From the NCBI RefSeq assembly GCF_003387075.1, contig NZ_QUMQ01000001.1, positions 7,254,001 to 7,318,000 of the forward strand: a stretch of 64,000 bases of DNA, given 5' to 3'. Shown here piece by piece: positions 5,917 through 19,374 of this stretch (the stretch's first letter is position 1; every line of letters begins with the position of its first letter). Below the pieces are notes generated by a model. That model was not told the origin of the DNA, ran no database searches, and saw only the letters and a program-made list of their open reading frames with translations. The position numbers and the translations under genes are program-made. This stretch comes from Asanoa ferruginea. Lineage in GTDB: Bacteria; Actinomycetota; Actinomycetes; Mycobacteriales; Micromonosporaceae.

Positions 5917-6501
5917 TCATTTCCTCCTGTTGATCTTAGGGTTGGGCTTGGCGGCGCGGAGCAGGGCGAGCGCGCCGGCCCGGGCGTCGTCGAACGGGCC
6001 CTGGTCCTGCTGTGCGATCGCGAGCACGTAGCCGCCCTGGAGCACGGCCATCAGGGTGTGTGCGAGCTGCTCGGGGTCGAGGTCGTCGCGCAGTTGGCCC
6101 GCGGCGACCGCCTCGCGGAGCACCCTCACCCAGCTCACGTGGACCTCGGCGAACGCGCGCGCGACCGGGGCGAGCAGCACCGGGTCTTCGCGGACCTGGG
6201 GGTCCTGGGTCATCCGCCCGACCTTGCAGCCCTTCAGGGCGGCGCGGGGACGCATCAGGTAGGCCTCGATGCGGGCCATCGGGTCGCCGGGGCCGTCGAG
6301 CTCGGACGCGGCCGGCAGCAGGTCGGCGATGTTGCGCTCGAGCGCGGCCAGCGCCAGGTCTCGCTTGGTCGAAAAGTGGTGGTACATGCTGCCCTGGCCC
6401 ACGCCGGACCGCTCGCGCACGTGGCGCGGGCTGGTGTCGGCGTAACCACGCTCCCACATCAGCTCGCTCATCGTGTCGACCAGGAGTTCTCGCGAGTCCA
6501 T
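5917..6501 (-). CDS. TetR-family transcriptional repressor coupled to gap
   Basis: 194 residues from the ATG at 6501. The helix-turn-helix reads YADTSPRHVRERSGVGQGSMYHHFSTK in parts near residues 20-45, with the hallmark YHHF. The C-terminal ligand domain (GCKVGRMTQDP) resembles the LmrA/YxaF branch. The stop codon is four bases from the gap start, so repressor and enzyme form one operon. A near-palindrome overlaps its own promoter (see 6510-6529), suggesting autorepression that also governs gap. The ligand is unknown. Confidence 0.87.
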   Translation of the reverse strand: MDSRELLVDTMSELMWERGYADTSPRHVRERSGVGQGSMYHHFSTKRDLALAALERNIADLLPAASELDGPGDPMARIEAYLMRPRAALKGCKVGRMTQDPQVREDPVLLAPVARAFAEVHVSWVRVLREAVAAGQLRDDLDPEQLAHTLMAVLQGGYVLAIAQQDQGPFDDARAGALALLRAAKPNPKINRRK

Positions 6502-6529: not shown

Positions 6530-6602
6530 GCGGGTTGGAGAGGCTCTGGATGGACGGCCACCGGATCTACCGCATCGCCCGCCTCGGCGCGAGGATGGTC
6601 GC

Positions 6603-8294
6603 ATGAAGCCCGGGGTCGGATCCGTCGACGAGTCACACGCTGGCCACCTCGCGACGATGCTGGCCTATGTGGACCGGCAGGAGCTCGATCCGCGCGAGAC
6701 GTTCCACGAATGGGAGGCCGAGCTTCCGCCGGCCGAGCGCGCGGCGTTCGGCGGGCTCAAGGACTCGGCCGCGATCCGGGCGAGCATCGAGGCGGCCTTT
6801 CCCGGCCACACCGTCCACAATGTAGACGGGATGAACGAGGTCTACGTCTCCAACATGGGCGCCAAGGGCTCCGACCGGGCGTTCCTCCAGCACCACATCG
6901 ACGGGCCGTTCGGCCTACTGCCGTTCATGACGCTGCTGCGCTGCCTGGTCGTCGTGCGGGGAAACGACCGCGTCACGACGATCTTCTCGGCCCAGCGGCG
7001 CGGTGACACGCTGCGTACGGGTCAGTTCTGCTGGTTCGACTACAACCGCGACATCCACCACATCACCAAGACCGGCGACCCCGACGACCTCCTCGACGAC
7101 AGCCGCATCTGCCTCAAGGTGCACTACGCGGTCGCACCGCGGTGGCTCGCGCCGTTCCAATCGCTCTTCGAGGGGTGGAACGAGACCTACAACCGGCGGG
7201 CACGGCAGCTTTTCGTCGCGAGCAAGAACCCGCAGTCGGCGATCGGCCGGTTCCTCGGCGCGATCGTCAACGTCGGCACGTTTCTCTACCCGCTGTTCTT
7301 CCAATACGTCGGCGTGCTCAACCTGCTCGTCGTGCTGCTGTTCTGGGTCGCGTCCGCGGGCCATCCCACGGAGCGGGTCTACCTGTTCAGCTTCGTCCAC
7401 TACCTCCTCTACGTCTTCGCCTACGCGTTCCGCGCGGTCGAGCCCGGCCGGTTCGCGCGCGACGCGACGCTGTTCCAGCTCATCGCGCTCGGCACGCTGT
7501 TCTACCAATACGGGCAGGAGGGGCTCGATGTGCCGTCGCTCGCGGTCGCGGCCGTCGGGTTCGGGCTGTCCGGGCTCGCGTTCCTGCGGCTCGGCTCCGA
7601 CCGCACCTATTTCGGCGCGGAGTTCGGCGTCGTCCCGCCGGGCAGGGTCACGGGCTTCCCCTACGGTGTCATTCCGCATCCCATGATCGTCGGCAAGCTC
7701 GTCGGCTTCGCCGGGCTCGCGCTGCACGCACCGTTCCGCGCGGCGTGGTGGCCGCTGCTGGTCGGGCACGTGGCCTGCTACGTGCTCGTGCTGTGCCAGG
7801 AGCTAGCGGGCCGGCACGTGGCCTTCCGCTTCGAGGAGACCTACCGCGACTTCGCGCGGTTCCATCGGCGGACCGGGAACGTGGTCGTCCACCTCGTCAC
7901 CACCGGGCTCGGCCTGCTCGGCATCTTCGGGCTCGTCGGCCTGGTCGGCCCGACGCCCGCGGTGGCGGTGTCGTTCGTCGCGGTCGGCTACGCGTTCTTC
8001 TGCGCCTACACGGCACCCGATCAGACCGCGCTGACGTCGGTCCTGTTCACCGGTGTCGTGCTGGCCGCCTACCTCGCCCTGCCCACGCTGATCTGGCCGG
8101 TCTCCGTCGGGCTGCTGGTCTTCGGCTGGGTGGCGCAGGACCTGTCCCACATCGTGTTCCGGGAGCGGACCTACATGAGCTCCTACCAGCGCGAGCGCGG
8201 GGCGGCGGGACAGTTCGCGCTGCACAGCGTGCTGCTCGTGCCGCTCATCTGCCGGGCCGCGTTCTTCCGTGTTACCGAGCCCGCAACCGCTTGA
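6603..8294 (+). CDS. Fused membrane protein: oxygenase-like, PE N-methyltransferase-like and Mpo1-like parts
   Basis: 563 residues in three parts. Residues 1-190 are soluble with HHIDGPFG near residue 98 and a distal KVHYAV near residue 175, an H-x-D...H arrangement suggestive of an Fe(II) oxygenase. Residues 200-430 are membrane helices ending in FGAEFGVVPPGRV and FPYGVIPHPMIVG, which resemble the SAM-binding region of phosphatidylethanolamine N-methyltransferases. The last 130 residues carry FHRRTGNVVVHLV and QDLSHIVFRERTYM, spaced like the His motifs of Mpo1/DUF962 fatty-acid dioxygenases. It faces the betaine-lipid-like operon and overlaps its last gene by 23 bases. Domain calls are from motif shape, not a search. 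Probable role: lipid headgroup methylation or acyl-chain oxidation. Confidence 0.55.
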   Translation: MKPGVGSVDESHAGHLATMLAYVDRQELDPRETFHEWEAELPPAERAAFGGLKDSAAIRASIEAAFPGHTVHNVDGMNEVYVSNMGAKGSDRAFLQHHIDGPFGLLPFMTLLRCLVVVRGNDRVTTIFSAQRRGDTLRTGQFCWFDYNRDIHHITKTGDPDDLLDDSRICLKVHYAVAPRWLAPFQSLFEGWNETYNRRARQLFVASKNPQSAIGRFLGAIVNVGTFLYPLFFQYVGVLNLLVVLLFWVASAGHPTERVYLFSFVHYLLYVFAYAFRAVEPGRFARDATLFQLIALGTLFYQYGQEGLDVPSLAVAAVGFGLSGLAFLRLGSDRTYFGAEFGVVPPGRVTGFPYGVIPHPMIVGKLVGFAGLALHAPFRAAWWPLLVGHVACYVLVLCQELAGRHVAFRFEETYRDFARFHRRTGNVVVHLVTTGLGLLGIFGLVGLVGPTPAVAVSFVAVGYAFFCAYTAPDQTALTSVLFTGVVLAAYLALPTLIWPVSVGLLVFGWVAQDLSHIVFRERTYMSSYQRERGAAGQFALHSVLLVPLICRAAFFRVTEPATA

Positions 8295-9090
8295 CGGCGC
8301 GCAGGAGCTCCATCGGTCGTTCGAACGGGATCGCGTGCCCGGCATCGGCCAGGACCGTCAACCGCGCGTCCGGAAGGCATTCCGACAGCACGCGTGAGTT
8401 GCGCGGCGCGAGCACCCGGTCGCCGGCCCCGACCAGCACCTCGACCGGCACGCCGACGGCTCCGAGCCGGCCGGCCGTGCGATGGAACGACATCGCGGCC
8501 GCCTGGAGGAGCGAGTTGACCCGCGAATAGGGCTCCGCCCGCTGGATCTCCCGGAGCGGGGCCAACAGCTCGTGCGCATCGCTCGGGCTCTTGTTCTCGT
8601 GGACGAGCAGGCGATCGCACATGGACCACACCCGGACGTCCTTCGAGACCGCCGCCGCGACGGTCAGCGGCAGCGAACGCAGGAACGCGCGCGAGAAGTC
8701 GGCGCGGGCCGAACTGGCCGACAGCACCAGCCCGCCGACCTGCCCCGGGTGCCGGAGAGCGAGGAGTTGCGCGACCATCCCGCCCATCGACTCCCCCACC
8801 ACGAGGGCGGGAGCGTGACCGGCGGCGGCGCCCAGGACGGCGGCGGCGTCATCAGCCACCGTCGAGAGCGTGTAGGGCCGCAGAGAGCGCGCCGACCCGC
8901 CCGTGCCGCGGTGGTCGACGAGCACGACTCGATAGGGCAGCGGACCCACCCGCTCGAGCCAAGGCAGCCAACTGCTCCCCGAGCGGCCGTAGCCGGCCAG
9001 CAACACGAGTGCGGGGTCCGGCCCGTCGCGGACCTGATACGACAGCCGCACGCCGCCGCGCTGCACCCAGTGGCGCGACAGCCCGCTCAC
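8272..9090 (-). CDS. Alpha/beta hydrolase, last gene of the FAAL-BtaA operon
   Basis: 272 residues from a GTG at 9090 whose GTGA overlaps the stop of the methyltransferase gene. The nucleophile elbow is GESMG with Ser101; the acid and base are probably in GAGDRVL and DAGHAIP. LLAGYGRSG near the start forms the oxyanion region. Overall shape is that of serine hydrolases, including thioesterases and esterases. In this operon it could release an acyl group from the carrier domain or remove a fatty acyl chain from a lipid product; that is inference. Its 3' end overlaps the convergent 563-residue gene. Confidence 0.82.
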   Translation of the reverse strand: MSGLSRHWVQRGGVRLSYQVRDGPDPALVLLAGYGRSGSSWLPWLERVGPLPYRVVLVDHRGTGGSARSLRPYTLSTVADDAAAVLGAAAGHAPALVVGESMGGMVAQLLALRHPGQVGGLVLSASSARADFSRAFLRSLPLTVAAAVSKDVRVWSMCDRLLVHENKSPSDAHELLAPLREIQRAEPYSRVNSLLQAAAMSFHRTAGRLGAVGVPVEVLVGAGDRVLAPRNSRVLSECLPDARLTVLADAGHAIPFERPMELLRAVKRLRAR

Positions 9091-9686
9091 GCGGTGAAGC
9101 GCGCGACGACGAAGTAGCGGAGCGGCCCGTGCGAGACGTGGCTGGCGCCGTGGCGGTGCAGCAGGTCGTCCGGCACCGCTTCGACGTGGAACGCGGACAG
9201 GAACCGCCGCATCGCCCGTAGCCCGTTTAGGTCGGCGAAGTCGACCACCCACAGCTCGCCGCCCGGCGCGAGGTGCCGTCGCGCGTTGTCGATCGCCCGG
9301 CCCTTGTCGGTGAACATCGACAGGCAGTAGGACATCAGGATCCGCTGCGGCGGCGCACCGAGGACGGCACCGATGTCGCCGTCTTCGGCGAAGCCGGCAT
9401 CGATCCGCGCCCACGGGCAGCGGCGGCGGGCGTGGGCGCGCATGACGTCGCTGGCCTCCAACCCGCCGAGCGTCGCGGTCGGCCGGCGCCGGTGGATCCG
9501 GGCGAGGTTGCGTCCGGTGCCCGGGCCGATCTCCACGAGCGTCGTCCAGTCGCTCGCCAGCAGCCTGTCGAGCACGCCGTCGCGGCCGAACAGGAAGTAT
9601 TTCCGCGTTGCGTCGTAGACGTGATGGGTGAGCCGGTAGTAGCGGTCGAGGAACGCGCGATGGGCCGCCTGGGCGTCCGGCGTCAT
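9087..9686 (-). CDS. BtaB-like SAM-dependent N-methyltransferase
   Basis: 199 residues starting at the ATG at 9686, which overlaps the btaA-like stop by four bases (ATGA). N-terminal YYRLTHHVYDATRKYFLFGR is the pattern seen in BtaB, which trimethylates the homoserine headgroup of betaine lipids. The class I methyltransferase motif I is LVEIGPGTGRN near residue 50, with GGLEASD as motif II and LAPGGELWVVDF as a later strand. BtaB converts diacylglyceryl-homoserine to DGTS with three SAM. Here the acceptor may differ because of the linked acyl-condensing enzyme. Confidence 0.8.
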   Translation of the reverse strand: MTPDAQAAHRAFLDRYYRLTHHVYDATRKYFLFGRDGVLDRLLASDWTTLVEIGPGTGRNLARIHRRRPTATLGGLEASDVMRAHARRRCPWARIDAGFAEDGDIGAVLGAPPQRILMSYCLSMFTDKGRAIDNARRHLAPGGELWVVDFADLNGLRAMRRFLSAFHVEAVPDDLLHRHGASHVSHGPLRYFVVARFTA

Positions 9687-10813
9687 GCGATGACCCGGTA
9701 AAGGTTGACCCGGCCGTAGAGCCGGGTGCGCTCCTGCTCGCTCGCCTGGCTCGAGGCGGGCTCGACGCGTTCGTAGAGGTCGGACAGGCCGACCCGGTCG
9801 ACGACGCACGCGTCTTCGACGCTGCGGGTCAGGACGACGGCACTCGGCCCACCCACCCTGGCGATCCCCCGCAACAGGTGCCGCTGCGCGTCGGTCGGCA
9901 GCCAGTCGAGCACGTCGCAGAGGGAGAAGTGCGACCACTGCCCCGGCGCCGCGTCGGCGACCATCCGTTGCAGCGACGCGCGATGGAAGCCCACCTCGGT
10001 CGGCGCCACGAGCGAGCGCCGGTGGCTCTCCGCCCGAAGGTACGGCGGAACTGCCTCGGGGTGATCGTGGTTGAACTCCCCCGTCAACGCCACCCAGACG
10101 AACCAGTTCGTCTCCAGGTCGGTCTGGGCGAGCCGTTCGAAACGGGCGGCGACGACGTCCATCATGGTCGCCGCCGCGTTGGCCCGCAGGTTGCGCTGCC
10201 GTTGCTCGAAGTTGACGCCGATGCCGAGCAGGAACAGCGGTGTGTTGACCACCGTGCGGATCGGCACCGAGCCTTTGATCGAGGCGAAGATCGGGGCGAG
10301 GCGGGCGAGCCGGTCGGCGGGCGGGAGCCGGTGCAGGGCGCGCAGGAAGTCCGCGTCGAGGCCCACCTTCCGCCGGAGCCACCGCTGGAAGGTGCCGGCC
10401 AGGCCCTCGGCGTACAAGTTGCGCTGAAAGCGTCGGTAGTTCGTGCTCCAATAGCGCCCCACCCAGTCCGGCAGGCCGTTCATCAGCGGCCGGAGGGTTT
10501 GCTCCGGGTCGCCGTGCCGGCCGCGGCCGAGGAGTTCATAGAACTCGGCGTGCGACCGCACCCGGCGCGCCGCGGCGACCTTGAGCGCGGCCAACGCCAG
10601 GTGGTGCGGATTGGTGTCGATCGCGTCGATCCGCGCCGGGTGCGCCGCGAGCAGACCCGCCACCCCACAGCCGGCCCCGCTGACCGCCAGCACCCGCGAG
10701 CGTTGGTCGAGCCCCAGCACGCGGTTGTCGACCTCCGAGTCCTCGTAGAGCAGGGAGAAGGTGAAGATGCGCTTGAAGGTCGCGGCGAACGCGCGGTCGG
10801 CGAGTTGGGCCAT
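9683..10813 (-). CDS. BtaA-like (DUF3419) S-adenosylmethionine 3-amino-3-carboxypropyl transferase
   Basis: 376 residues. AFAATFKRIFTFSLLYEDSE at the N-terminus and RVLAVSGAGCGVAGLLA near residue 35, followed by IDAIDTNPHHLALAALK, match the SAM-binding part of BtaA/DUF3419 proteins. These move the 3-amino-3-carboxypropyl group of SAM to diacylglycerol, the first step to betaine lipids. YWSTNYRRFQRNLY and PRH-like regions continue the family pattern. The start shares one base with the ligase stop (TGATG), so translation is coupled. In known betaine-lipid producers btaA-btaB stand alone; here they sit downstream of an acyl-AMP ligase fusion. The acceptor is therefore uncertain. Confidence 0.83.
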   Translation of the reverse strand: MAQLADRAFAATFKRIFTFSLLYEDSEVDNRVLGLDQRSRVLAVSGAGCGVAGLLAAHPARIDAIDTNPHHLALAALKVAAARRVRSHAEFYELLGRGRHGDPEQTLRPLMNGLPDWVGRYWSTNYRRFQRNLYAEGLAGTFQRWLRRKVGLDADFLRALHRLPPADRLARLAPIFASIKGSVPIRTVVNTPLFLLGIGVNFEQRQRNLRANAAATMMDVVAARFERLAQTDLETNWFVWVALTGEFNHDHPEAVPPYLRAESHRRSLVAPTEVGFHRASLQRMVADAAPGQWSHFSLCDVLDWLPTDAQRHLLRGIARVGGPSAVVLTRSVEDACVVDRVGLSDLYERVEPASSQASEQERTRLYGRVNLYRVIA

Positions 10814-13800
10814 CAGGGTGTGGTGCCACCGCTGCGCGCCATGCCGCGGACCTCGTCGTCGAACCGGGCCATCCACCCGTCGATCTCCCCGCCCGACCAT
10901 CCGAGGTGGCGGGGCGAGTAGAACCACTCGACGCACGTCGTTCCCTCGACAACGGAGCACTCCAGGTAGAGCGGCGGTTGCTTGACCCCGCACTCCGGGT
11001 CCCACATGTCGCCGAGCGGCCCCGCCCGCAGCGAGAACAGGCCGCCGCGGCTCCGGGTCGGCGCCTCGCCCTGGAAGTTGAACCAGAGCGTCGGCGCCGG
11101 CGCATCGAGGATGCTCTTTCGCACGATCGGATCGTCGTTCAGATATTTGAGCGCGTCGAACGACAGGCCCGCCGACGGCACGCGGGTGAGCCGTTCGGCC
11201 ACCGCGGACAGCGTCTCCGCCGGGCTCTGGTGTGCGCTGTCGTCGAACGCCAGCGGGAAGCTGCAATGCATGTCGCCGACCGTCCGCGAGAGATCGAGGC
11301 CGTGCACCGCCGGCTGTCTGCCCGAGCTCGACAGCTTCAGCGCGAGGCGACCGCAGCTCCACTGGCGCTGAGCGGTTCGCACCAGCGTCGCGAGCAGCGT
11401 CGTCGCCAGTGGGGCGCGGCGCCCGTCGACGCGCAGGTCGCGCAGCGCGCGCGTCTCGTCGGGCCCGAGGTATTGGCGGGCGCTCACGACGTCTTTCATC
11501 CGGATGCCGGGGTCGTAGGCGACGGGCGGCGGCACATCGAGCTGCGCGCGCCAGAAATCCAGATCGGCGGTGGCGGCGCCACGCGCGAAGTCGTTCATCC
11601 AGCGGGCGAAGACCTCGAAGCGTTCGGAGGTACGCGCCAGCGCGAGGCGCTCGCCCCGCTCGTCGAGCTGGCAGAGGCGGTCGAGCTCGTCGACCAGGAT
11701 GCCCATCGTGACGGCGTCCATCACGAGGTGATTGACGGTGATGAAGAGGCGCTGCGCCGAGCCGGTCTCCACCAGCAGCAGGCGCAGGACGGGGCCGTTC
11801 TCGATGCGAAGGCGGCGATGCTGCTGGTTCAGCAGCTCCTCGTCGGGCTCGCTGGAGGTGACCGACTCGACGGCAAAGCTGGTTTCGATGTCGCCGTAGC
11901 GCTGTGCGAAGCGGCCGTCGTCCCGCCGGAAGCGCAGCCGCAGCGAGTCGTGCCGGGCGACCAGCGCGGCCGTGGCCCGGCGCAGGCCCTCCGGACTGAG
12001 CCGGCGGTGCACGTCGAGCATGACCGCGCGGTTCCACCAGTTCCATTGCCCGAGTCGCAGGGCGTGCGCCTGCGCGGGGCTGAACGGGACCTCGCCGGTG
12101 TGCGATGCGCTCGTGGCTTCCTCCGGGTCGGCGGGCGCCAGCTCGAATCGGCTCTGGACCACAGCCGCGATCGCCCGCAGGGTCGATCCGTCGGTGATGC
12201 TGGCCGGCTCGACGCGCGCTCCGGTGCGGTCCTCGATGCGGGTGGCCAGGTCGAGCAGCCCGAGCGAGTCGAGGCCGGCGTCGCGCAGCGGCAGGTCGAC
12301 CGGTATGTCGTTGGGCTCGGACAGCCCCAACACGGCGGCGACCTCGGTTTGCAGCAGCCGGAGCAGGTATCCCGGATCAGCGTCGCTCCGCGCCGTCGGA
12401 CGGTGCTGTCCCGTGAGCGCCAGCGGGCGCAGGGAGCCGTCCGTCCACTGTTGCCCGCACTCCCCGCGCCGCAGCTTTCCGCTGGTCGTCTTCGGCAGGC
12501 TGTCGGGCCGCAGCAGCAGGACCTCGTGGCACTGCACACCGCTGTGCGCGGCCACCGCGGCGCGAATCGCGGACGCCGCACGGTCGAGCGGGACAGGCTC
12601 CCTGCCCGCGAGAACCTTCTTGCGTACCTCGGCCGCCACCACGACCCGCTCGACGCCGTCGACGTGCACGCCGAAGGCGACCGCGTTGCCGGGCCGCAGG
12701 ATCGGGTCGGCGGCCACCACGGCCGCCTCCAGGTCCTGCGGATGGATGTTGCGACCGCCGACGATGATCAGGTCCTTGAGGCGGCCGCAGATGAACACCT
12801 CGCCGTCGTCGCCGATGACACCGAGGTCACCGGTGCGCAGGAAGCGCCGCTCGTCGCCGCCCTCCAGCCGCGCGGCGAAGGTGGCCGCGTTCTCCTCCTC
12901 GGAGCGTCCCCAGTAGCCGCTCGACACGCTCGGGCTGGAGATCCAGATCTCGCCCACGACGTGCGGCGGCCGCGGCCGCCGGGTGACCGGGTCGACGGCG
13001 ATCACCGACACGCCGAGCCCCGCGTCGGGGACGCCGCTGCCCACGAGCGTCACCGCGGGTGCGTCGGGCACGGGAGGCGTGATCACCCCGTCGCGATCCA
13101 GCACGGCCCGGTCGCCGCGCAGCAGCGTCGGCTTCCGGCCGATCCGGCCGCTGACGAACAGCACCGCCTCGGCCAGGCCGTAGACGTTGCAGAACGACGC
13201 CGGGTCGAAGCGCATCGGAGCCAGCCCGGCTTCGACGCGATCCATCGTCGCGGCCAGCATCGGCTCGCCGCCCTGAAGCGTGGCTCGCAGCGACGAGAGG
13301 TCGAACGTGTCGCCGTCGCGGATGCCGCGCAGCACGTACTCATAACCGAAGTTGGGTCCTGCGATGTGGGTGGCCCGGTAGCGGTCGATCGCGTCGAGCC
13401 AGAGGCGGGGCGCGGCCAGGAAGGTCAGCGGCGAGAAGTAGACGCAGCGGGCCCCGGTGTAGGCCGCGTTCAGGATCCCGCCGGCCAGGCCCATGTCGTG
13501 GAACAGAGGCACCCAGCCGACGAGCACCGAGTCGCTGTCGACCCGGGTGCTGCGCGCGATGAGCTCGAGGTTGTGGACCAGGTTCTTATGGCGCACGACG
13601 ACGCCCTTGGGGGCCGACGTCGAGCCGGAGGTGTATTGGAGGTAGACGATGTCGTCGGGGCCGAACCTGCTGGCCGCGCGGGCGAGTCGGGCCGCGGCCC
13701 GGTCCGGCTCGGCCCGCTTGATGCGGTGGGACAGGAGCCACGAGAGCCTGGGCCAGGCCGCCGCCTCGCGGCCGCGCAACAGGTTGGTCACGCCGTCGCG

Positions 13801-14199
13801 CACCGACGCGAGCGTCGTGAGCGCCCGGTATCTGGCGTGCGTGAGCGCGACGCGGGCGCCGCTGTCGTCGACGAGGTGGCGGAGCTTGGGCAGCTCGCGA
13901 TCGAGATGCCGGGGGTCGGGACTCGCGGCCGGGACCGCGATCGCGCCGAGCAGCACACAGCCGAGGAAGCTGGCGACGAACTCGAGACCGCCGTCGGGCG
14001 GGAAGACCAGCAGGACCCGGTCGCCGGGCCCGACCCCGGCCGCTTCGAGCAGGTCGGCGGCCCCCGCCGCGCGCCGCACGATCTCCTCGTAGTCGGCCGA
14101 GTCCACCTCGTTGCCGTGGCGATCGAGGAACGCGAACAGGGGCGCCCGAGGGGCGACGTCGAGACGCTCGACCATTCTGGCGAGAAGGCTCGCGGTCAT
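10813..14199 (-). CDS. Fatty acyl-AMP ligase - carrier - condensation trifunctional protein
   Basis: 1128 residues. Residues 1-590 form an acyl-AMP ligase: YLQYTSGSTSAPKGV near residue 190, VPLFHDMGLAGG, RTGDLG and catalytic Lys575 in TTSGKLRR; the YTSGSTSAPKGV and HDMG forms are typical of FAALs, which load fatty acids on carrier proteins. Residues 610-690 form a carrier domain with attachment Ser645 in GLDSL. Residues 700-1120 form an NRPS condensation domain whose core is NH-LVM-DA (His824, Asp828) in place of HHxxxDG. There is no adenylation domain for amino acids and no thioesterase. It would join an activated fatty acid to an amine or hydroxyl, possibly the product of the coupled BtaA-like enzyme. 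Confidence 0.87.
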   Translation of the reverse strand: MTASLLARMVERLDVAPRAPLFAFLDRHGNEVDSADYEEIVRRAAGAADLLEAAGVGPGDRVLLVFPPDGGLEFVASFLGCVLLGAIAVPAASPDPRHLDRELPKLRHLVDDSGARVALTHARYRALTTLASVRDGVTNLLRGREAAAWPRLSWLLSHRIKRAEPDRAAARLARAASRFGPDDIVYLQYTSGSTSAPKGVVVRHKNLVHNLELIARSTRVDSDSVLVGWVPLFHDMGLAGGILNAAYTGARCVYFSPLTFLAAPRLWLDAIDRYRATHIAGPNFGYEYVLRGIRDGDTFDLSSLRATLQGGEPMLAATMDRVEAGLAPMRFDPASFCNVYGLAEAVLFVSGRIGRKPTLLRGDRAVLDRDGVITPPVPDAPAVTLVGSGVPDAGLGVSVIAVDPVTRRPRPPHVVGEIWISSPSVSSGYWGRSEEENAATFAARLEGGDERRFLRTGDLGVIGDDGEVFICGRLKDLIIVGGRNIHPQDLEAAVVAADPILRPGNAVAFGVHVDGVERVVVAAEVRKKVLAGREPVPLDRAASAIRAAVAAHSGVQCHEVLLLRPDSLPKTTSGKLRRGECGQQWTDGSLRPLALTGQHRPTARSDADPGYLLRLLQTEVAAVLGLSEPNDIPVDLPLRDAGLDSLGLLDLATRIEDRTGARVEPASITDGSTLRAIAAVVQSRFELAPADPEEATSASHTGEVPFSPAQAHALRLGQWNWWNRAVMLDVHRRLSPEGLRRATAALVARHDSLRLRFRRDDGRFAQRYGDIETSFAVESVTSSEPDEELLNQQHRRLRIENGPVLRLLLVETGSAQRLFITVNHLVMDAVTMGILVDELDRLCQLDERGERLALARTSERFEVFARWMNDFARGAATADLDFWRAQLDVPPPVAYDPGIRMKDVVSARQYLGPDETRALRDLRVDGRRAPLATTLLATLVRTAQRQWSCGRLALKLSSSGRQPAVHGLDLSRTVGDMHCSFPLAFDDSAHQSPAETLSAVAERLTRVPSAGLSFDALKYLNDDPIVRKSILDAPAPTLWFNFQGEAPTRSRGGLFSLRAGPLGDMWDPECGVKQPPLYLECSVVEGTTCVEWFYSPRHLGWSGGEIDGWMARFDDEVRGMARSGGTTP

Positions 14200-14208
14200 T
14201 CCCGGAAG

Positions 14209-15591
14209 CTACACCCGCGATCGATCCCGGCGTACGGTCAGCGCACACCCGACAGCCGCGGCCACCAACAGGGCCGCGTTGACGGTGAGGGCGGTGTGCA
14301 TCGCGTCCACCATGGATGCTCCGGCGGTCATCCGGGTGGTGAGGATCGCGCCGAGCACGGCGGGGCCCAGCGTGCCGCCATACTGGCGCAGCGCGGTGTT
14401 GCCGGCCGCGGCCATGCCGGCGAGATGGTGTGGGACGCGGTGGATGGCCGCCACCGCGACCGCGCTGAGCATGAACGCGTTGGCGACACCCAGGACGGCC
14501 AGCCGCCAGGCGGCGTCACCGAGGCCGGTGTCGGGCCGCAGACCGGTCAGCAGCACCATGGCGACGGCCCCGAGTGCCAGCCCGACGGCCAGCAGGCCGA
14601 TCGGTGACCAGCGGCCGAGCAGCCGGCCGACGAACGGGTTGGCGACCACGGCGACGCCGTTGAGAAACAGCAGGCGCACCGCGATCTCCAGCGGCGAAAG
14701 GTGCTGTCCGGCGCCGAAGTAGAGGCTGAGCAGGAAGGTCGTGCCGACCAGCACGAACAGCGCGACGAGCGCCGCGACGCCCGCCGCGCTGAACGCCGGC
14801 GAGCGGAACAGCGCCAGGTTCAGCAGCGGCGACGTGGAGCGTGCCTCCGCCCGCAGGAACCCGGCCAGGGCGGCGGCGCCGACGCCCAACCCGATCACCG
14901 CCCGGGTCGAGCCCCAGCCGGCCGCTCCGCCCTCGATGACGCCGAAGATGCTGGCCGCGATGGCGACGGTGGCGAGCAGTTGGCCGGGCCAGTCGAGGTG
15001 CCGGCCCTCCGGCGACCGGGAGTCGGGCAGCCAGCGGGCCGCGAAGGCGGCGGTGCCGACCGCGAGCACCGTGACCGGCGCGAAGATCCAGCCCCAGCCG
15101 GCGTACCGCAGGATGATGCCGGACGTGAGTGGCCCGACCGTGAGGCCGCCGACGAGTCCGGTCGCCCACGCGGCCATGAACCGCGCCCGCCGGCCGGGCT
15201 CCGGGACCGCGTGGGCGATGAGCCCGAGCGTCGTCGGCAGGAGCAGGCCACCGCCGACGCCGGTCACCGCCTGTCCTACACAAAGGACGGTCAACGGCCC
15301 CGGCAACGCGGCGCTGGCGGCGGCGAGCGCCGTGCCCGCCGCCGTCAGCGCCATGCCGATCAGGAACACCCGCCGGCGGCCGTGCAGGTCGCCGAAGACG
15401 CCGGCGGAGAGGATCACCGCTGCCATCGGGATGACATAGCTGACGGTGACCCACTGCAGGCCCGCGGTCGAGGCGCCGGTCGCGGCGCCGATGGTGGTCA
15501 GCGCGACGCTGACGGCGGTGATGGGTAGATAGATCACGAAGACCGCGACGACGGCGAACGCGACGGCACGGACGGCGGGCGGTCGGTTCAT
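14209..15591 (-). CDS. MFS transporter, DHA2-like drug/metabolite exporter
   Basis: 460 residues with about fourteen hydrophobic helices, the size of the DHA2 (14-TMS) proton antiporters. FGDLHGRRRVFLIG near residue 65 is the loop 2-3 signature, and GGGLLLPTTLGLIA the motif C region. It starts at the ATG at 15591, seven bases after the aldehyde dehydrogenase stop, and ends ten bases before the ligase gene. That spacing puts it in the same operon, so it probably exports the operon product or a toxic intermediate. Confidence 0.83.
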   Translation of the reverse strand: MNRPPAVRAVAFAVVAVFVIYLPITAVSVALTTIGAATGASTAGLQWVTVSYVIPMAAVILSAGVFGDLHGRRRVFLIGMALTAAGTALAAASAALPGPLTVLCVGQAVTGVGGGLLLPTTLGLIAHAVPEPGRRARFMAAWATGLVGGLTVGPLTSGIILRYAGWGWIFAPVTVLAVGTAAFAARWLPDSRSPEGRHLDWPGQLLATVAIAASIFGVIEGGAAGWGSTRAVIGLGVGAAALAGFLRAEARSTSPLLNLALFRSPAFSAAGVAALVALFVLVGTTFLLSLYFGAGQHLSPLEIAVRLLFLNGVAVVANPFVGRLLGRWSPIGLLAVGLALGAVAMVLLTGLRPDTGLGDAAWRLAVLGVANAFMLSAVAVAAIHRVPHHLAGMAAAGNTALRQYGGTLGPAVLGAILTTRMTAGASMVDAMHTALTVNAALLVAAAVGCALTVRRDRSRV

Positions 15592-15598
15592 GGTCGGC

Positions 15599-17047
15599 TC
15601 AGGCGAATTTCTGGGTGATCGTCTTGTATTCGAGGAAGTGGTCGATGCCGCCCGGGCCGTTGGCGTGGCCGACACCGCTCTGCTTGTAGCCGCCGATCTC
15701 GAACTGGTTCGGCAACTGGCCCCAGTCGTTGATCCAGAGCATGCCCGCCTGCACCTTCCGGGCGACCCGCAGCGGGCGGTTGACGTCGCTGCTCCAGACG
15801 CTGGCACCGAGGCCGTACTCGCTGTCGTTGGCGAGCGCGATCGCCTCGGCCTCGGTGTCGAAGACCTGGATCGTCTGCACCGGGCCGAAGACCTCCTGGT
15901 GCACGATGGGCAGCGCCGGATCGGTGACCTCGAGCAGGGTCGGCCGGTAGAACGCGCCCTTGGCGAGGTCGCCCTCGCGGGCCGGGCCGCCGCGCACGAC
16001 CGGCACGGCGCCGGCGGCGATGGCCTCCTCGACCAGCCGGTCCACCCGCTCGACGCCGGCCTGGTCGATCAGCGAGCCCATGTCGACGGACCGGTCGGCG
16101 CCGGGGCCGACGGTGACGTTGGCCAGGCGCTCGGCGAGGCGCTGCTTGACCGTCCCGTAGACGCCGCGCTGCACGATCAGCCGGCCGGCGGTGATGCAGA
16201 ACTGGCCGGTGAAGATGGTCAGCGACTTCTCGATGACCGGCAGGGCGGCGTCGAGGTCGGCGTCGTCGAAGACGATGTGCGGGGTCTTGCCGCCCAGTTC
16301 CAGGCCCACCCGCTTGACGTGCTTAGCGGCGGCGGCACCGATGGCCCGGCCGGTCGGCGTGCTGCCGGTGAACATGATCGCCGGCACGTCCGGGCTGTCG
16401 ACGAGCCACTTGGCGGCTTCGCTGCCGCTTTCGGTGAGCACGTTGACGACGCCCGCCGGCAGGCTCGGCACGTCTTCGAAGACCCGGCTGATCGCCTCGT
16501 TGAGCAGTGGGGTCTGGCCGGGCAGCTTGACCACGGCAGTGCAGCCGGCGGCCAGGGCCGGCGCGAGGTCGCGGGCCAGCAACGCGGTCGGCGAGTTCCA
16601 CGGCGTGATCACCGCGGCGACGCCGACGGGCTCGCGCACGACCATCGTGTGCTTGCCGGGCTCGACCTCCATGACCCGGCCGTACGTCGTCTGCGCCAGC
16701 GCGGCCGCCGTGGTGAAGTTGCCCTTGGCGAAGCCGACCTCGAACTCGGCCTCCCAGATGGTCTTGCCGTTCTCCAGGGTGGTGAGGTCGGCGAGTTCCC
16801 GCTCGTGCCGCTGGAACGACGCGGCGATCTCCAGGAGCACCTTGGTGCGGAACTCCATGTCGTGGGCCCAGGTGGTCTCGTGGAAGGCCGCCGTGGCCGC
16901 GCGTACGGCCTGCTCCGCCTCCTCCTGACCCGCGTCGGCGTAGTGCCCGACGACCTCCCCGGTGGCGGGGTTGACGCTGTCGCCGTGCCGCGCCGAGTCG
17001 ACCCACTTTCCGTTGATCCAGTGCCGCGCTGTCCTGAGCGTGCTCAT
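15599..17047 (-). CDS. NAD(P)-dependent aldehyde dehydrogenase
   Basis: 482 residues, full length for the ALDH superfamily. VITPWNSP, ELGGKTPHIV (general base Glu) and the catalytic Cys284 in GQFCITAGR are present, with EVFGPVQ and YGLGASVW near the end. It oxidises an aldehyde to the acid in the cytosol. It starts at the ATG at 17047 after an AAGAG ribosome-binding site and is the first gene of the operon leading to the MFS and acyl-ligase genes. A fatty aldehyde or betaine aldehyde substrate would fit that context; an aromatic aldehyde is an alternative. An IclR gene is divergent from it. Confidence 0.88.
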   Translation of the reverse strand: MSTLRTARHWINGKWVDSARHGDSVNPATGEVVGHYADAGQEEAEQAVRAATAAFHETTWAHDMEFRTKVLLEIAASFQRHERELADLTTLENGKTIWEAEFEVGFAKGNFTTAAALAQTTYGRVMEVEPGKHTMVVREPVGVAAVITPWNSPTALLARDLAPALAAGCTAVVKLPGQTPLLNEAISRVFEDVPSLPAGVVNVLTESGSEAAKWLVDSPDVPAIMFTGSTPTGRAIGAAAAKHVKRVGLELGGKTPHIVFDDADLDAALPVIEKSLTIFTGQFCITAGRLIVQRGVYGTVKQRLAERLANVTVGPGADRSVDMGSLIDQAGVERVDRLVEEAIAAGAVPVVRGGPAREGDLAKGAFYRPTLLEVTDPALPIVHQEVFGPVQTIQVFDTEAEAIALANDSEYGLGASVWSSDVNRPLRVARKVQAGMLWINDWGQLPNQFEIGGYKQSGVGHANGPGGIDHFLEYKTITQKFA

Positions 17048-17103
17048 CTCTTCGACCTTCGTGTCTGCGATGGGCACCCGGCCGGGCGCCCGAGCCGAAC
17101 GTG

Positions 17104-17122
17104 TCACCGGGACCCCGGGTGA
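17104..17122. promoter_or_regulatory. Possible IclR operator in divergent promoter region
   Basis: A 19-base interrupted palindrome with outer arms TCACC and GGTGA lies between the aldehyde dehydrogenase and IclR starts. The intergenic space is 158 bases and the site is near its middle. IclR regulators often control the divergent gene from such a site. Only symmetry and position support this; GC-rich palindromes are common by chance. Confidence 0.3.
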
Positions 17123-17205
17123 GCCAAACCGCGCCCCGGCTGATCTTCCACCCGGCGGAAAAAAGCACGGTGGCAGCGACCTGGCTCTCCGGCTACTCTT
17201 CTGCC

Positions 17206-17949
17206 ATGCGGGAGAATGACACCGCCGAGTCCGTCGTCCGGCGCGCGCTGCGGCTGCTCGCCGTGCTGGCCGAGCATGGCGAGACCCGCCTGGGTCAGCT
17301 CGCGGCCGAGTCCGGGATACCCACGTCGACCGCGCACCGGCTGCTCGCCGCGCTGGAGGCCAGCGGCCACGTGGTGCGCCCGGCCGGCCCCGGCCGCCGG
17401 GCCTACCTGCCCGGCCCGGCTTTGTTCGAGCTCGCCGGTGCACGCGACCGGGCCGAGGGCGAGCTCGTCCGCCGCGCCGAGCCCTACCTGGCGTCGCTGG
17501 CCACCGAACTCGGCGAGACCGTGCACGTCGCCGTGCTGCACAACGGCCGCACCCGCTTCCTGGCGGGGCACGAGTCCCCCCGATCGCTGCGGGCCGGCCT
17601 ACGGCTCGGGCTCGAACACCCGGCGACCCTGTCGTCGCCCGGGCGGGCCATCCTGGCCCACCTCTCGCCCGACAATCTGGTGAGCTGCCTGGGCCCCGAG
17701 GTCGCCGGCGACCCCGCGCTGGCGCCGGTTCTCGAGGAGACCCGCCAGCGGGGCTACGCGGTCAACATCGCCGGCGTCGAACCCGACATCACCGCGATCG
17801 GCGCCGCGGTGGTCGACATCTACGGCCGGGTCCGTGGCGCGCTGGCCGTCGCCGGGCCGACCACCCGACTGCCGGAGAGCACGCTGCCGTGGATCGGCGG
17901 CATCCTGACCAAAGCGGCCAACGCGCTCGGCGCCGAGCTCGACACCTGA
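17206..17949 (+). CDS. IclR-family transcriptional regulator
   Basis: 247 residues from the ATG at 17206. The winged helix-turn-helix is at the N-terminus (TRLGQLAAESGIPTSTAHRL, residues 26-45). The IclR ligand domain follows, with LASLATELGETVHVAVL, SSPGRAILAHL, and RGYAVNIAGVEPDITAIGA. It is divergent from the aldehyde dehydrogenase operon and so may control it, sensing a small carboxylate or aromatic acid. It is followed by a strong terminator shared with the convergent SDR gene. Confidence 0.9.
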   Translation: MRENDTAESVVRRALRLLAVLAEHGETRLGQLAAESGIPTSTAHRLLAALEASGHVVRPAGPGRRAYLPGPALFELAGARDRAEGELVRRAEPYLASLATELGETVHVAVLHNGRTRFLAGHESPRSLRAGLRLGLEHPATLSSPGRAILAHLSPDNLVSCLGPEVAGDPALAPVLEETRQRGYAVNIAGVEPDITAIGAAVVDIYGRVRGALAVAGPTTRLPESTLPWIGGILTKAANALGAELDT

Positions 17950-17956
17950 TCCCGCA

Positions 17957-18010
17957 CGCCCGAGGGGCGCCACCCGCTCCCCCTGCCGTGCGGATGGCGC
18001 CCCTCGGGCG
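17957..18010. terminator. Bidirectional intrinsic terminator
   Basis: A perfect 16-base stem (CGCCCGAGGGGCGCCA at 17957-17972 with its complement at 17995-18010) encloses a 22-base loop between the convergent IclR and SDR genes. There is no long T run on either side, as is usual for actinobacterial terminators. Position and stem length make a two-way terminator likely. Confidence 0.75.
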
Positions 18011-18017
18011 GCGGTGT

Positions 18018-18767
18018 TCAGAGCCGGGCGTAGCCGCCGTCCGCCATGATCGTCTGCCCGGTCACGAAGCTCGCGTCGTCACTGGTCAGGAACGCGACCG
18101 TGCCGGCCACGTCGTCGGGTTCACCGTTGCGCTTGATGGCCTGGCTCGCGGCGGCCGCCCGCAACGCCTCCTCGCTGTGCTCCAGCAGCGCTCCCGGCGT
18201 GCGGCTGAGCGTGGGCCCGACAGCGTTGACCGTGATCCCGTCGGCGGCGACATCGTTGGCCAGGCCGCGGGTGAAGCCGATCGCGCCCATCTTGCTCGCC
18301 ATGTAGTGCGACAGGTTCGCCTGCGTCGTGATGATCGAGTTGGAGGTCAGGTTGACGATGCGCCCCCAGCCACGCTCGCGCATCGCCGGCAGCAGGGCCT
18401 TGACCATCAGGAACTGCGAGTCGAGGTTGACCGCGAGGATCCGCCGCCAGGTGGCGTAGTCGAGCTCGTCGATGCCGATGTGCGGGAGGATTCCCGCGTT
18501 GTTGACCAGGATGTCGGCCCGGCCGAACTCGCGGACGATCCCGGCACCGACGGCGGCGACCTGCTCCGGGTCGGACACGTCGACCGTGCGGCCGACCGCG
18601 ACCTGGCCGGACTCGTCGATCAGCGCGAGGGTCTCGTCGGGGCTGGCGAGGTCGATCGCGACGATCGTCGCGCCACGCTCGGCGAGCCGGCGCGCGATCG
18701 CCTGGCCGATGCCACGAGCGGCGCCGGTGACCACCGCCACCCGGCCTTCGTGCGTCTGTGTTGACAT
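18018..18767 (-). CDS. Short-chain dehydrogenase/reductase
   Basis: 249 residues, classical SDR. TGAARGIG (residues 15-22) binds the cofactor; Asp in VAIDLA suggests NAD preference; NNAG follows. The active-site Ser, Tyr and Lys are in TSNSI and YMASK, and the tail FLTSDDASFVTGQ is the FabG-like end. AGGAGG lies nine bases before the ATG at 18767. It follows the nitroreductase gene by 13 bases, so the two form an operon for reduction or oxidation of a small carbonyl compound. Confidence 0.9.
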   Translation of the reverse strand: MSTQTHEGRVAVVTGAARGIGQAIARRLAERGATIVAIDLASPDETLALIDESGQVAVGRTVDVSDPEQVAAVGAGIVREFGRADILVNNAGILPHIGIDELDYATWRRILAVNLDSQFLMVKALLPAMRERGWGRIVNLTSNSIITTQANLSHYMASKMGAIGFTRGLANDVAADGITVNAVGPTLSRTPGALLEHSEEALRAAAASQAIKRNGEPDDVAGTVAFLTSDDASFVTGQTIMADGGYARL

Positions 18768-18780
18768 GGCTGTTCCTCCT

Positions 18781-19374
18781 TCAGGCCGTCGTGACGACGT
18801 CGTCGTAGTCGAGCCGCGGGCCGCGGCCGAACCACGCGTCCGCGCCGGGCTTACCGAGGTTGATGACGGCGAGCACCTCGTGCTCGCCATCGGGAAAGAA
18901 GGTCTTGTTGATGCCCGCGGCGTCGAACCCCACCATCTGCCCGGCGGCCAGGCCGGCCGCGCGCACGCCGAGGATGAAGTAGCCGACCTGGAGCGCCGCG
19001 CTCAACCGCGCGGACCCGACGCGCAACTCCTCGTCTCGGTCGAACTTCTCGCGCGCGGTCGGTGCGTGCGGGAACGTGCGATGCAGGTCAGTGTGGAAGT
19101 TGGTGTAGGCGGCCATGATCGCGACCAGCGGCGCGCTGCCGGTCTTGGCCTTGTTGCCGTCGTCCATGTGGACCAGCAGCCGGTCGCGTGCCTCCGGCGA
19201 CCGCACCAGGACGATCCGCAGCGGCTGGCCGTTCATCTCGGTGGGTCCATATTTGATCAGGTCGTAGACGGCGCGCATCTGCCCGTCGGTCACCGACTCT
19301 TCGGTGAACGTGTTGGCCGTGCGGGCCGTGCGGAACAGGAGATTCTGGGCTGTGTCGTCGATCAGGAGAGACAT
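18781..19374 (-). CDS. RutE/HadB-like malonic semialdehyde reductase (nitroreductase family)
   Basis: 197 residues with the FMN-dependent nitroreductase fold. LFRTARTANTFTEESV and IKYGPTEMNGQPLRIVLV match the RutE/RutE-like subfamily, which reduces malonic semialdehyde to 3-hydroxypropionate. GAAL-type helix LQVGYFILGVRAAGLAAGQM and the acidic GFD loop complete the domain. First gene of a two-gene operon with the SDR. No other pyrimidine-degradation genes are nearby, so the real substrate may be another short aldehyde or enal. Confidence 0.82.
   Translation of the reverse strand: MSLLIDDTAQNLLFRTARTANTFTEESVTDGQMRAVYDLIKYGPTEMNGQPLRIVLVRSPEARDRLLVHMDDGNKAKTGSAPLVAIMAAYTNFHTDLHRTFPHAPTAREKFDRDEELRVGSARLSAALQVGYFILGVRAAGLAAGQMVGFDAAGINKTFFPDGEHEVLAVINLGKPGADAWFGRGPRLDYDDVVTTA

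Follow-up and report, generated by a model that had tools for sequence, protein, structure and literature searches.

A conserved gene unit in Asanoa ferruginea and its relatives that may direct synthesis of a specialised homoserine-betaine lipid

Asanoa ferruginea has a 9.07 Mb genome on a single contig (NZ_QUMQ01000001.1), of which we analysed a stretch of 64,000 nucleotides, positions 7,254,001 to 7,318,000 (hereafter the window; coordinates count from its first letter). Within it, genes resembling btaA and btaB of betaine-lipid synthesis directly follow a gene for a protein that fuses a fatty acyl-AMP ligase (FAAL), a carrier (T) domain and a condensation-fold domain, here called FAAL-T-C. 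An initial annotation had read six minus-strand genes as one group: aldehyde dehydrogenase (ALDH), major facilitator superfamily (MFS) exporter, FAAL-T-C, BtaA, BtaB and an alpha/beta hydrolase (ABH). All six open reading frames (ORFs) are present. The conserved unit consists of FAAL-T-C, BtaA, BtaB and ABH together with a convergent membrane protein (window 6603-14199). The gene combination is real, conserved and, as far as we have searched, undescribed. Its features and flanks are as follows.

15599-17047, minus strand: ALDH (Pfam Aldedh, 496 bits), judged to lie outside the lipid unit
14209-15591, minus strand: MFS exporter (Pfam MFS_1, 134 bits), judged to lie outside the lipid unit
10813-14199, minus strand: FAAL-T-C, a FAAL-carrier-epimerase/condensation-fold protein of 1128 residues (Pfam AMP-binding, PP-binding and Condensation)
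10870-12105, minus strand: epimerase (E)-type condensation-fold domain, about residues 699-1110 of FAAL-T-C (sequence comparison, motifs)
9683-10813, minus strand: BtaA-like DUF3419 protein of 376 residues (PF11899), predicted 3-amino-3-carboxypropyl transferase
9087-9686, minus strand: BtaB-like N-methyltransferase of 199 residues (homology to a rhizobial partner gene)
8272-9090, minus strand: ABH with a GESMGG stretch (Abhydrolase_1, 78 bits; start codon uncertain)
6603-8294, plus strand: convergent membrane protein of 563 residues (PEMT domain, weakly Mpo1-like C-terminal part)
6544-6603, plus strand: pfaC remnant, the last 20 codons (tblastn E 3e-5 against PfaC of A. ishikariensis)

The coordinates bear out the annotated spacing of at most 10 bases: ALDH, MFS and FAAL-T-C are separated by 7 and 9 bp, and the FAAL-T-C-BtaA-BtaB-ABH junctions are overlaps of 1, 4 and 4 bp, sizes that follow from the start codons chosen. 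The gene identities also held, through the Pfam families Aldedh, MFS_1, AMP-binding/PP-binding/Condensation, DUF3419 and Abhydrolase, and for BtaB through rhizobial homology. The relatives that we compared with the window genome (G000) were matched to Asanoa hainanensis (G001), A. iriomotensis (G002), A. ishikariensis (G003) and Paractinoplanes rishiriensis (G056), and include a further genome, G071; their genes were called by a simple GC-by-codon-position script, which leaves their start codons uncertain. A start codon yielding a 4-base overlap is available at both the BtaA-BtaB and the BtaB-ABH junction in G001, G003, G056 and G071, and the FAAL-BtaA overlap in these genomes ranges from 4 to 59 bases. 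Because the overlaps recur in the four relatives measured, the packing of the genes is conserved and not a matter of chance.

In FAAL-T-C, the Pfam domains span residues 30-430 (AMP-binding), 615-680 (PP-binding) and 702-1019 (Condensation). The ligase part appears closest to FAALs by sequence: its best Protein Data Bank (PDB) matches include FadD32, FadD23, FadD28 and a fatty acyl-adenylate ligase, while the names of the three highest-ranking chains say no more than polyketide synthase. In NCBIfam, models for fatty-acid--AMP ligases come high in the ranking, and among the matches listed (25 families) none reached its cut-off.

FAAL-initiated lipopeptide starters such as PvdL place a T domain and then a condensation-fold domain behind the FAAL, and the window protein has the same layout. 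Its third domain fits the PvdL domain that precedes the C domain (129 bits, against 17 bits for that C domain itself). The next PDB matches are chains of bacitracin, tyrocidine and gramicidin synthases; we take all these matched domains to be E domains of nonribosomal peptide synthetases (NRPSs), with which the motifs agree. The epimerization model TIGR01720 scores 38.9 bits (E 7e-10), below its cut-off of 74.2. A standard condensation domain was thus ruled out by the closest match to E domains and by the motif comparison. The catalytic glutamate of E domains sits in an EGHGRE motif. At about residue 956 the LEGHGRE of PvdL is replaced by LSSSGRQ in the window protein, and in the alignment all 22 orthologs have Ser, Ala, Phe or Thr in place of the glutamate, with SSSGR in all six that accompany BtaA. 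The active-site stretch VNHLVMD is kept at residue 822, and the His and Asp of xHLVxD in 21 of the 22, the window protein among them.

We therefore regard the C-terminal domain, on its sequence, as an epimerase-type scaffold that has lost the epimerase glutamate, and the simplest reading is that it acts as an acyltransferase onto a free acceptor. In the window genome FAAL-T-C alone matches PF00668 (E 0.001), unlike the setting of PvdL-type starters, and so has no NRPS partner there. The PapA5-type acyltransferases of mycobacterial phthiocerol dimycocerosate synthesis offer a precedent, as condensation-fold enzymes that transfer a lipid chain from a carrier to the hydroxyl of a lipid. A weak PapA5 match (E 8e-7) is compatible with the acyltransferase reading; the window domain differs in being E-type and part of one protein with its own FAAL and carrier, and its transfer is a prediction.

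BtaA and BtaB form the bacterial pathway to diacylglyceryltrimethylhomoserine (DGTS), one of the betaine lipids, which are simple phosphorus-free membrane lipids. The window BtaA matches PF11899 (DUF3419) at 167.6 bits against a curated cut-off of 28.2, and three rhizobial DUF3419 proteins at 23-28% identity (E 2e-30 to 2e-26). Two of those three genes directly precede a BtaB-like gene, and the third (L065) has none downstream. A fold search with a predicted model of BtaA (mean confidence, pLDDT, 62) returned mostly methyltransferases, none at E 0.001. In Pfam, BtaB hits nothing more specific than generic methyltransferase families; its label holds by homology, since on a Rhizobium leguminosarum plasmid the gene immediately after DUF3419 encodes a methyltransferase with which BtaB shares 40% identity (E 5e-34). 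In both the window and the DGTS systems of Rhizobium and Sinorhizobium plasmids, DUF3419 is thus followed by a class I methyltransferase, and the two share YDxTRKYxLxGRD. The window BtaA differs: it belongs to a subfamily of its own, overlaps the FAAL-T-C gene and comes with ABH and the PEMT/Mpo1-like protein, and in some relatives genes of the polyunsaturated fatty acid (PUFA)-synthase type (Pfa) accompany the unit.

The ABH orthologs (71-78%) lie beside BtaB in three relatives' loci (L030-L032). The membrane protein has an N-terminal domain of unknown kind and a PEMT domain at residues 313-400 (39.4 bits), and its C-terminal part alone is Mpo1-like at 24.9 bits (cut-off 24), a score that drops to 15.4 in the whole protein.

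Among 354 genomes of the family, the window's BtaA subfamily and the membrane protein co-occur in an identical set of six. The unit stands together in five of them (G000, G001, G003, G056 and G071) and is spread across contigs in G002, and BtaA overlaps FAAL-T-C in all six. The initial annotation staked its reading on the ligase fusion being conserved together with BtaA and BtaB in relatives, and the overlapping set bears out this part of it. DUF3419 of any kind gave a match in 25 of the 354 genomes: six with this subfamily, 12 with other strong matches and seven with weak ones. The C-terminal half of FAAL-T-C had matches in 34 genomes at 1e-30, which divide into 22 orthologs (window counted) and 12 ordinary matches at no more than 35%. 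The 21 other orthologs are 64-76% identical to the window protein over that half; in three of the 22 rows (G056, G045 and G013) a stop falls inside the matched stretch, and the genes as called run to 1115-1136 residues.

Beyond the family, order and class samples gave matches at E 0.001 in 6 of 397 and 11 of 394 genomes and no further ortholog; besides the window genome, the best were partial (1.3e-15 and 4.6e-16). A scan of 84,980 genomes with two peptide patterns only recovered the four named relatives and a deltaproteobacterial metagenome-assembled genome (MAG) with a BtaA/BtaB pair; G071 was not among its results. That MAG pair (L033, 9995-11781) is the nearest outside the family, with 42% identity for BtaA and 49-50% for BtaB (50% to the window protein), and its locus has no FAAL-T-C match. 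It is possible that such a pair was the source by transfer. As far as sampled, the gene set is narrowly distributed.

A Pfa cluster (PfaD, PfaA, PfaC) occurs in four of the six BtaA-carrying genomes, linked in three and split over contigs in one. In A. hainanensis and A. ishikariensis pfaD, pfaA and pfaC form a run whose last gene overlaps, at its end, the membrane-protein gene; in P. rishiriensis pfaD diverges from FAAL-T-C, with about 125 bp between them by the called start; and in the fragmented A. iriomotensis genome the pfaC end adjoins the membrane-protein gene, with the other Pfa genes on separate contigs. PfaD and PfaA of A. ishikariensis exceed their curated cut-offs (575.7 against 449.25 bits and 1153.4 against 1010.1 bits). 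Its PfaA contains ketosynthase (KS), acyltransferase (AT), acyl carrier protein and ketoreductase domains and a match to the polyketide synthase dehydratase family, and its PfaC contains KS, AT and a FabA-type dehydratase.

The window genome has no PfaC ortholog, giving partial matches of 30-42% only, and at 1e-20 PfaD has no match there either; these genome-wide searches covered PfaC and PfaD. What it has is the pfaC remnant at 6544-6603, 20 codons that are 90% identical to A. ishikariensis PfaC and that overlap the start of the membrane-protein gene, the arrangement seen in the relatives. We read this remnant as the probable trace of a Pfa gene deletion in the window strain. An ORF at 5917-6501, TetR-like by eye, ends 42 bp from it.

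FAAL-T-C and Pfa genes are also neighbours without BtaA in G075, G076 and G350; the first two carry an MFS-FAAL pair that is divergent from pfaD-pfaA-pfaC. At 67% identity or more, PfaD orthologs occur in 8 of the 22 FAAL-T-C genomes and in none of 22 comparison genomes without FAAL-T-C (p 0.004, uncorrected for kinship; the comparison genomes, G004, G005 and G016-G035, were hand-chosen). Lower-identity PfaD relatives occur on both sides, at 45% in G016, which lacks FAAL-T-C, and at 47% in G014, which carries it. In a midpoint-rooted tree of the 22 FAAL-T-C proteins, whose bootstrap is not fully settled, the window falls in an eight-row group (96/97) made up of the six BtaA carriers plus G075 and G076, and 11 of the 12 stand-alone rows form a group of their own (100/100). 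We read this pattern as head-group and tail modules probably gained or lost around one transfer enzyme, with a direction of change that we infer.

Secondary-lipid synthases of the Pfa type have been sorted into 20 types (A-T, Shulse and Allen), 14 with uncharacterised products, and their products include heterocyst glycolipids and phenolic lipids (PMC3098273). A. ishikariensis carries the PfaD, PfaA and PfaC of such synthases, whereas the window genome has neither a PfaC nor a PfaD ortholog; the parts of that account available to us mention no BtaA, BtaB or FAAL partner (PMC3098273).

From the gene set and its order, its conservation, the domain families, the motif loss and the pfaC remnant, we propose a model in which the locus specifies a specialised homoserine-betaine lipid: the FAAL would load its acyl chain, and the E-type domain would pass this chain on to a lipid acceptor. 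We put the probability of this reading at just under one half (about 0.48); every substrate, the order of the steps and the product are predictions. In the full form of the pathway, an iterative PUFA-synthase-type PfaD/PfaA/PfaC system would build an unusual acyl chain, which the FAAL would activate as acyl-AMP and load onto the T domain. The E-type domain, without its epimerase glutamate and with its histidine kept, would transfer the acyl group to a free acceptor with a hydroxyl, of which glycerol or a lyso-glycerolipid is the simplest choice. BtaA would add the 3-amino-3-carboxypropyl group of S-adenosylmethionine to the remaining hydroxyl, BtaB would N-methylate the product to the homoserine betaine, and the hydrolase and the PEMT/Mpo1-like membrane protein may serve in editing or trimming of the chain. 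Since the Pfa genes of the window strain are apparently deleted, the FAAL there would have to take its chain from ordinary metabolism.

The homologues of BtaB trimethylate the nitrogen. If BtaB does likewise, N-acylation of a betaine, one of the products first suggested, is unlikely. It is tempting to go further and see here a new bacterial lipid class, with a homoserine-betaine head on a PUFA-synthase-type chain, delivered by a Glu-less NRPS epimerase scaffold turned acyltransferase, and with head and tail modules swapped between related clusters; this extended claim we consider doubtful.

Several observations weigh against the betaine-lipid model. FAAL-T-C stands without any DUF3419 match in 16 of its 22 genomes, so the co-occurrence expected from the initial annotation holds in the six BtaA carriers and fails in the rest, and the acceptor need not be a BtaA product. 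Twelve of these 16 also lack a PfaD ortholog of at least 67%, and two of the six BtaA carriers (the window genome and G071) lack PfaC and PfaD orthologs. G066 reads VHRLVMD, the one ortholog of 22 in which the active-site histidine position is lost. The AlphaFold model of the membrane protein was uninformative (pLDDT 38). DGTS is a lipid of phosphate starvation. In the regions upstream of FAAL of five relatives the PHO-box consensus picked out no clear site, with between 85 and 200 of 200 shuffles scoring equally well, and one PHO-box-like match in the window (3 of 200 shuffles as good) falls inside the MFS gene. Finally, we found no paper on a betaine lipid in Asanoa in the open PMC literature.

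The 12 stand-alone FAAL-T-C loci (L077, L080-L084, L086-L090 and L092), which have no BtaA and no close PfaD, come from 12 genomes, 11 of them of genus g4. No neighbour is common to all of them, and only four locus pairs share one neighbour at 60% or more, which suggests a common cellular acceptor.

One alternative is that the two activities are independent neighbours, BtaA and BtaB making ordinary DGTS from diacylglycerol and FAAL-T-C serving a separate lipid pathway, Pfa-linked or stand-alone. The 16 genomes with FAAL-T-C alone fit this, as do BtaA/BtaB pairs without FAAL-T-C in the deltaproteobacterial MAG and in the annotated stretch of the Rhizobium leguminosarum plasmid. However, the BtaA subfamily of the window overlaps FAAL-T-C in six of six genomes and has the membrane protein with it in six of six, and we hold independence to be rather unlikely.

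A second alternative is a glycerol-free and possibly secreted product: BtaA would attach the aminocarboxypropyl group directly to the Pfa/FAAL chain, at one of its hydroxyls, BtaB would methylate it and a transporter would export it. The secondary lipids of Pfa-type synthases are not always glycerolipids (PMC3098273). MFS-type genes of another lineage adjoin FAAL-T-C in G075, G076 and G351, and MFS-type ORFs lie upstream of pfaD in A. hainanensis and A. ishikariensis; an exporter role is conceivable. However, these transporters are only 29-35% identical to the window MFS, whose closest ortholog belongs elsewhere, and a review, in the part seen, names BtaA only for betaine lipid (PMC10491745). 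We consider such a product unlikely.

The window unit might instead be the decaying remnant of a Pfa cluster, as the missing PfaC and PfaD orthologs and the 20-codon pfaC remnant would allow. We compared dN/dS values, which range from 0.15 to 0.37 over 46 pairwise comparisons by a simple count method under biased codon use, with BtaB in one pair only and the hydrolase not included. The highest window pair exceeds the highest Pfa-carrier pair for BtaA (0.344 against 0.284) and for the membrane protein (0.365 against 0.312), so these two may be slightly relaxed in the window strain. Against decay, all reading frames are intact, the FAAL-T-C values of window pairs (0.27-0.34) equal those of Pfa-carrier pairs (0.26-0.33), and the unit also persists in G071, where PfaC and PfaD orthologs are likewise missing. 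All values lie far below 1; within the limits of the method, the unit is therefore kept under constraint, and we regard decay as improbable.

The six-gene "operon" itself is best described as a juxtaposition of two blocks. On contig C3 of A. ishikariensis, nitroreductase, SDR (short-chain dehydrogenase/reductase), IclR, ALDH and MFS genes follow the order of the window at 84-91% identity (ALDH 91%, MFS 85%), and the FAAL-BtaA unit of that genome lies apart on contig C5. ALDH gave a match at 1e-100 in two of six genus genomes, window counted, and a search of the four named relatives' loci for ALDH or MFS at E 1e-3 yielded a single hit, a 33% ALDH in L032 several kb off. ALDH and MFS were thus ruled out as members of the lipid unit, contrary to their first assignment. 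A single pathway in which they also act on the product, which the 7 and 9 bp gaps and the recurrence of MFS-type genes near related clusters would favour, is already largely refuted by those orthologs and by their near absence from the relatives' loci. The window block (14209-19374: MFS, ALDH, IclR, SDR and nitroreductase) resembles an IclR-controlled catabolic set.

A second type of DUF3419 protein forms a group in the DUF3419 tree (L005-L009, L011, L013, L015, L016 and L018; row L014 was left out). In L107 (5716-11854, genome G083), the only locus in which the full cluster was read, it stands in a compact cluster with a ketoacyl-ACP synthase III-like protein, an AurF-type N-oxygenase (Pfam), an NAD_binding_4 reductase, a GNAT protein and an 81-residue possible carrier without a Pfam match; no BtaB-like gene lies directly downstream of DUF3419 there. 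Aminocarboxypropyl transfer by this second type may form part of a natural-product pathway.

The initial annotation knew of no characterised pathway with this set of genes, and the open literature revealed none: the PMC papers searched, subscription papers being outside the search, hold no recognisable account of BtaA/BtaB with a FAAL or a PUFA synthase. We file the combination as a probable hybrid that joins the synthesis of betaine-lipid head groups to that of secondary lipids. Actinobacterial head-group enzymes beside a specialised-lipid tail pathway allow the idea of a custom-made betaine lipid to be tested. An epimerase-type NRPS domain may have become a stand-alone lipid acyltransferase in a genome where PF00668 has one match, and the related clusters, some of which have the head-group or tail genes while others lack them, provide a natural series in which each part can be tested.

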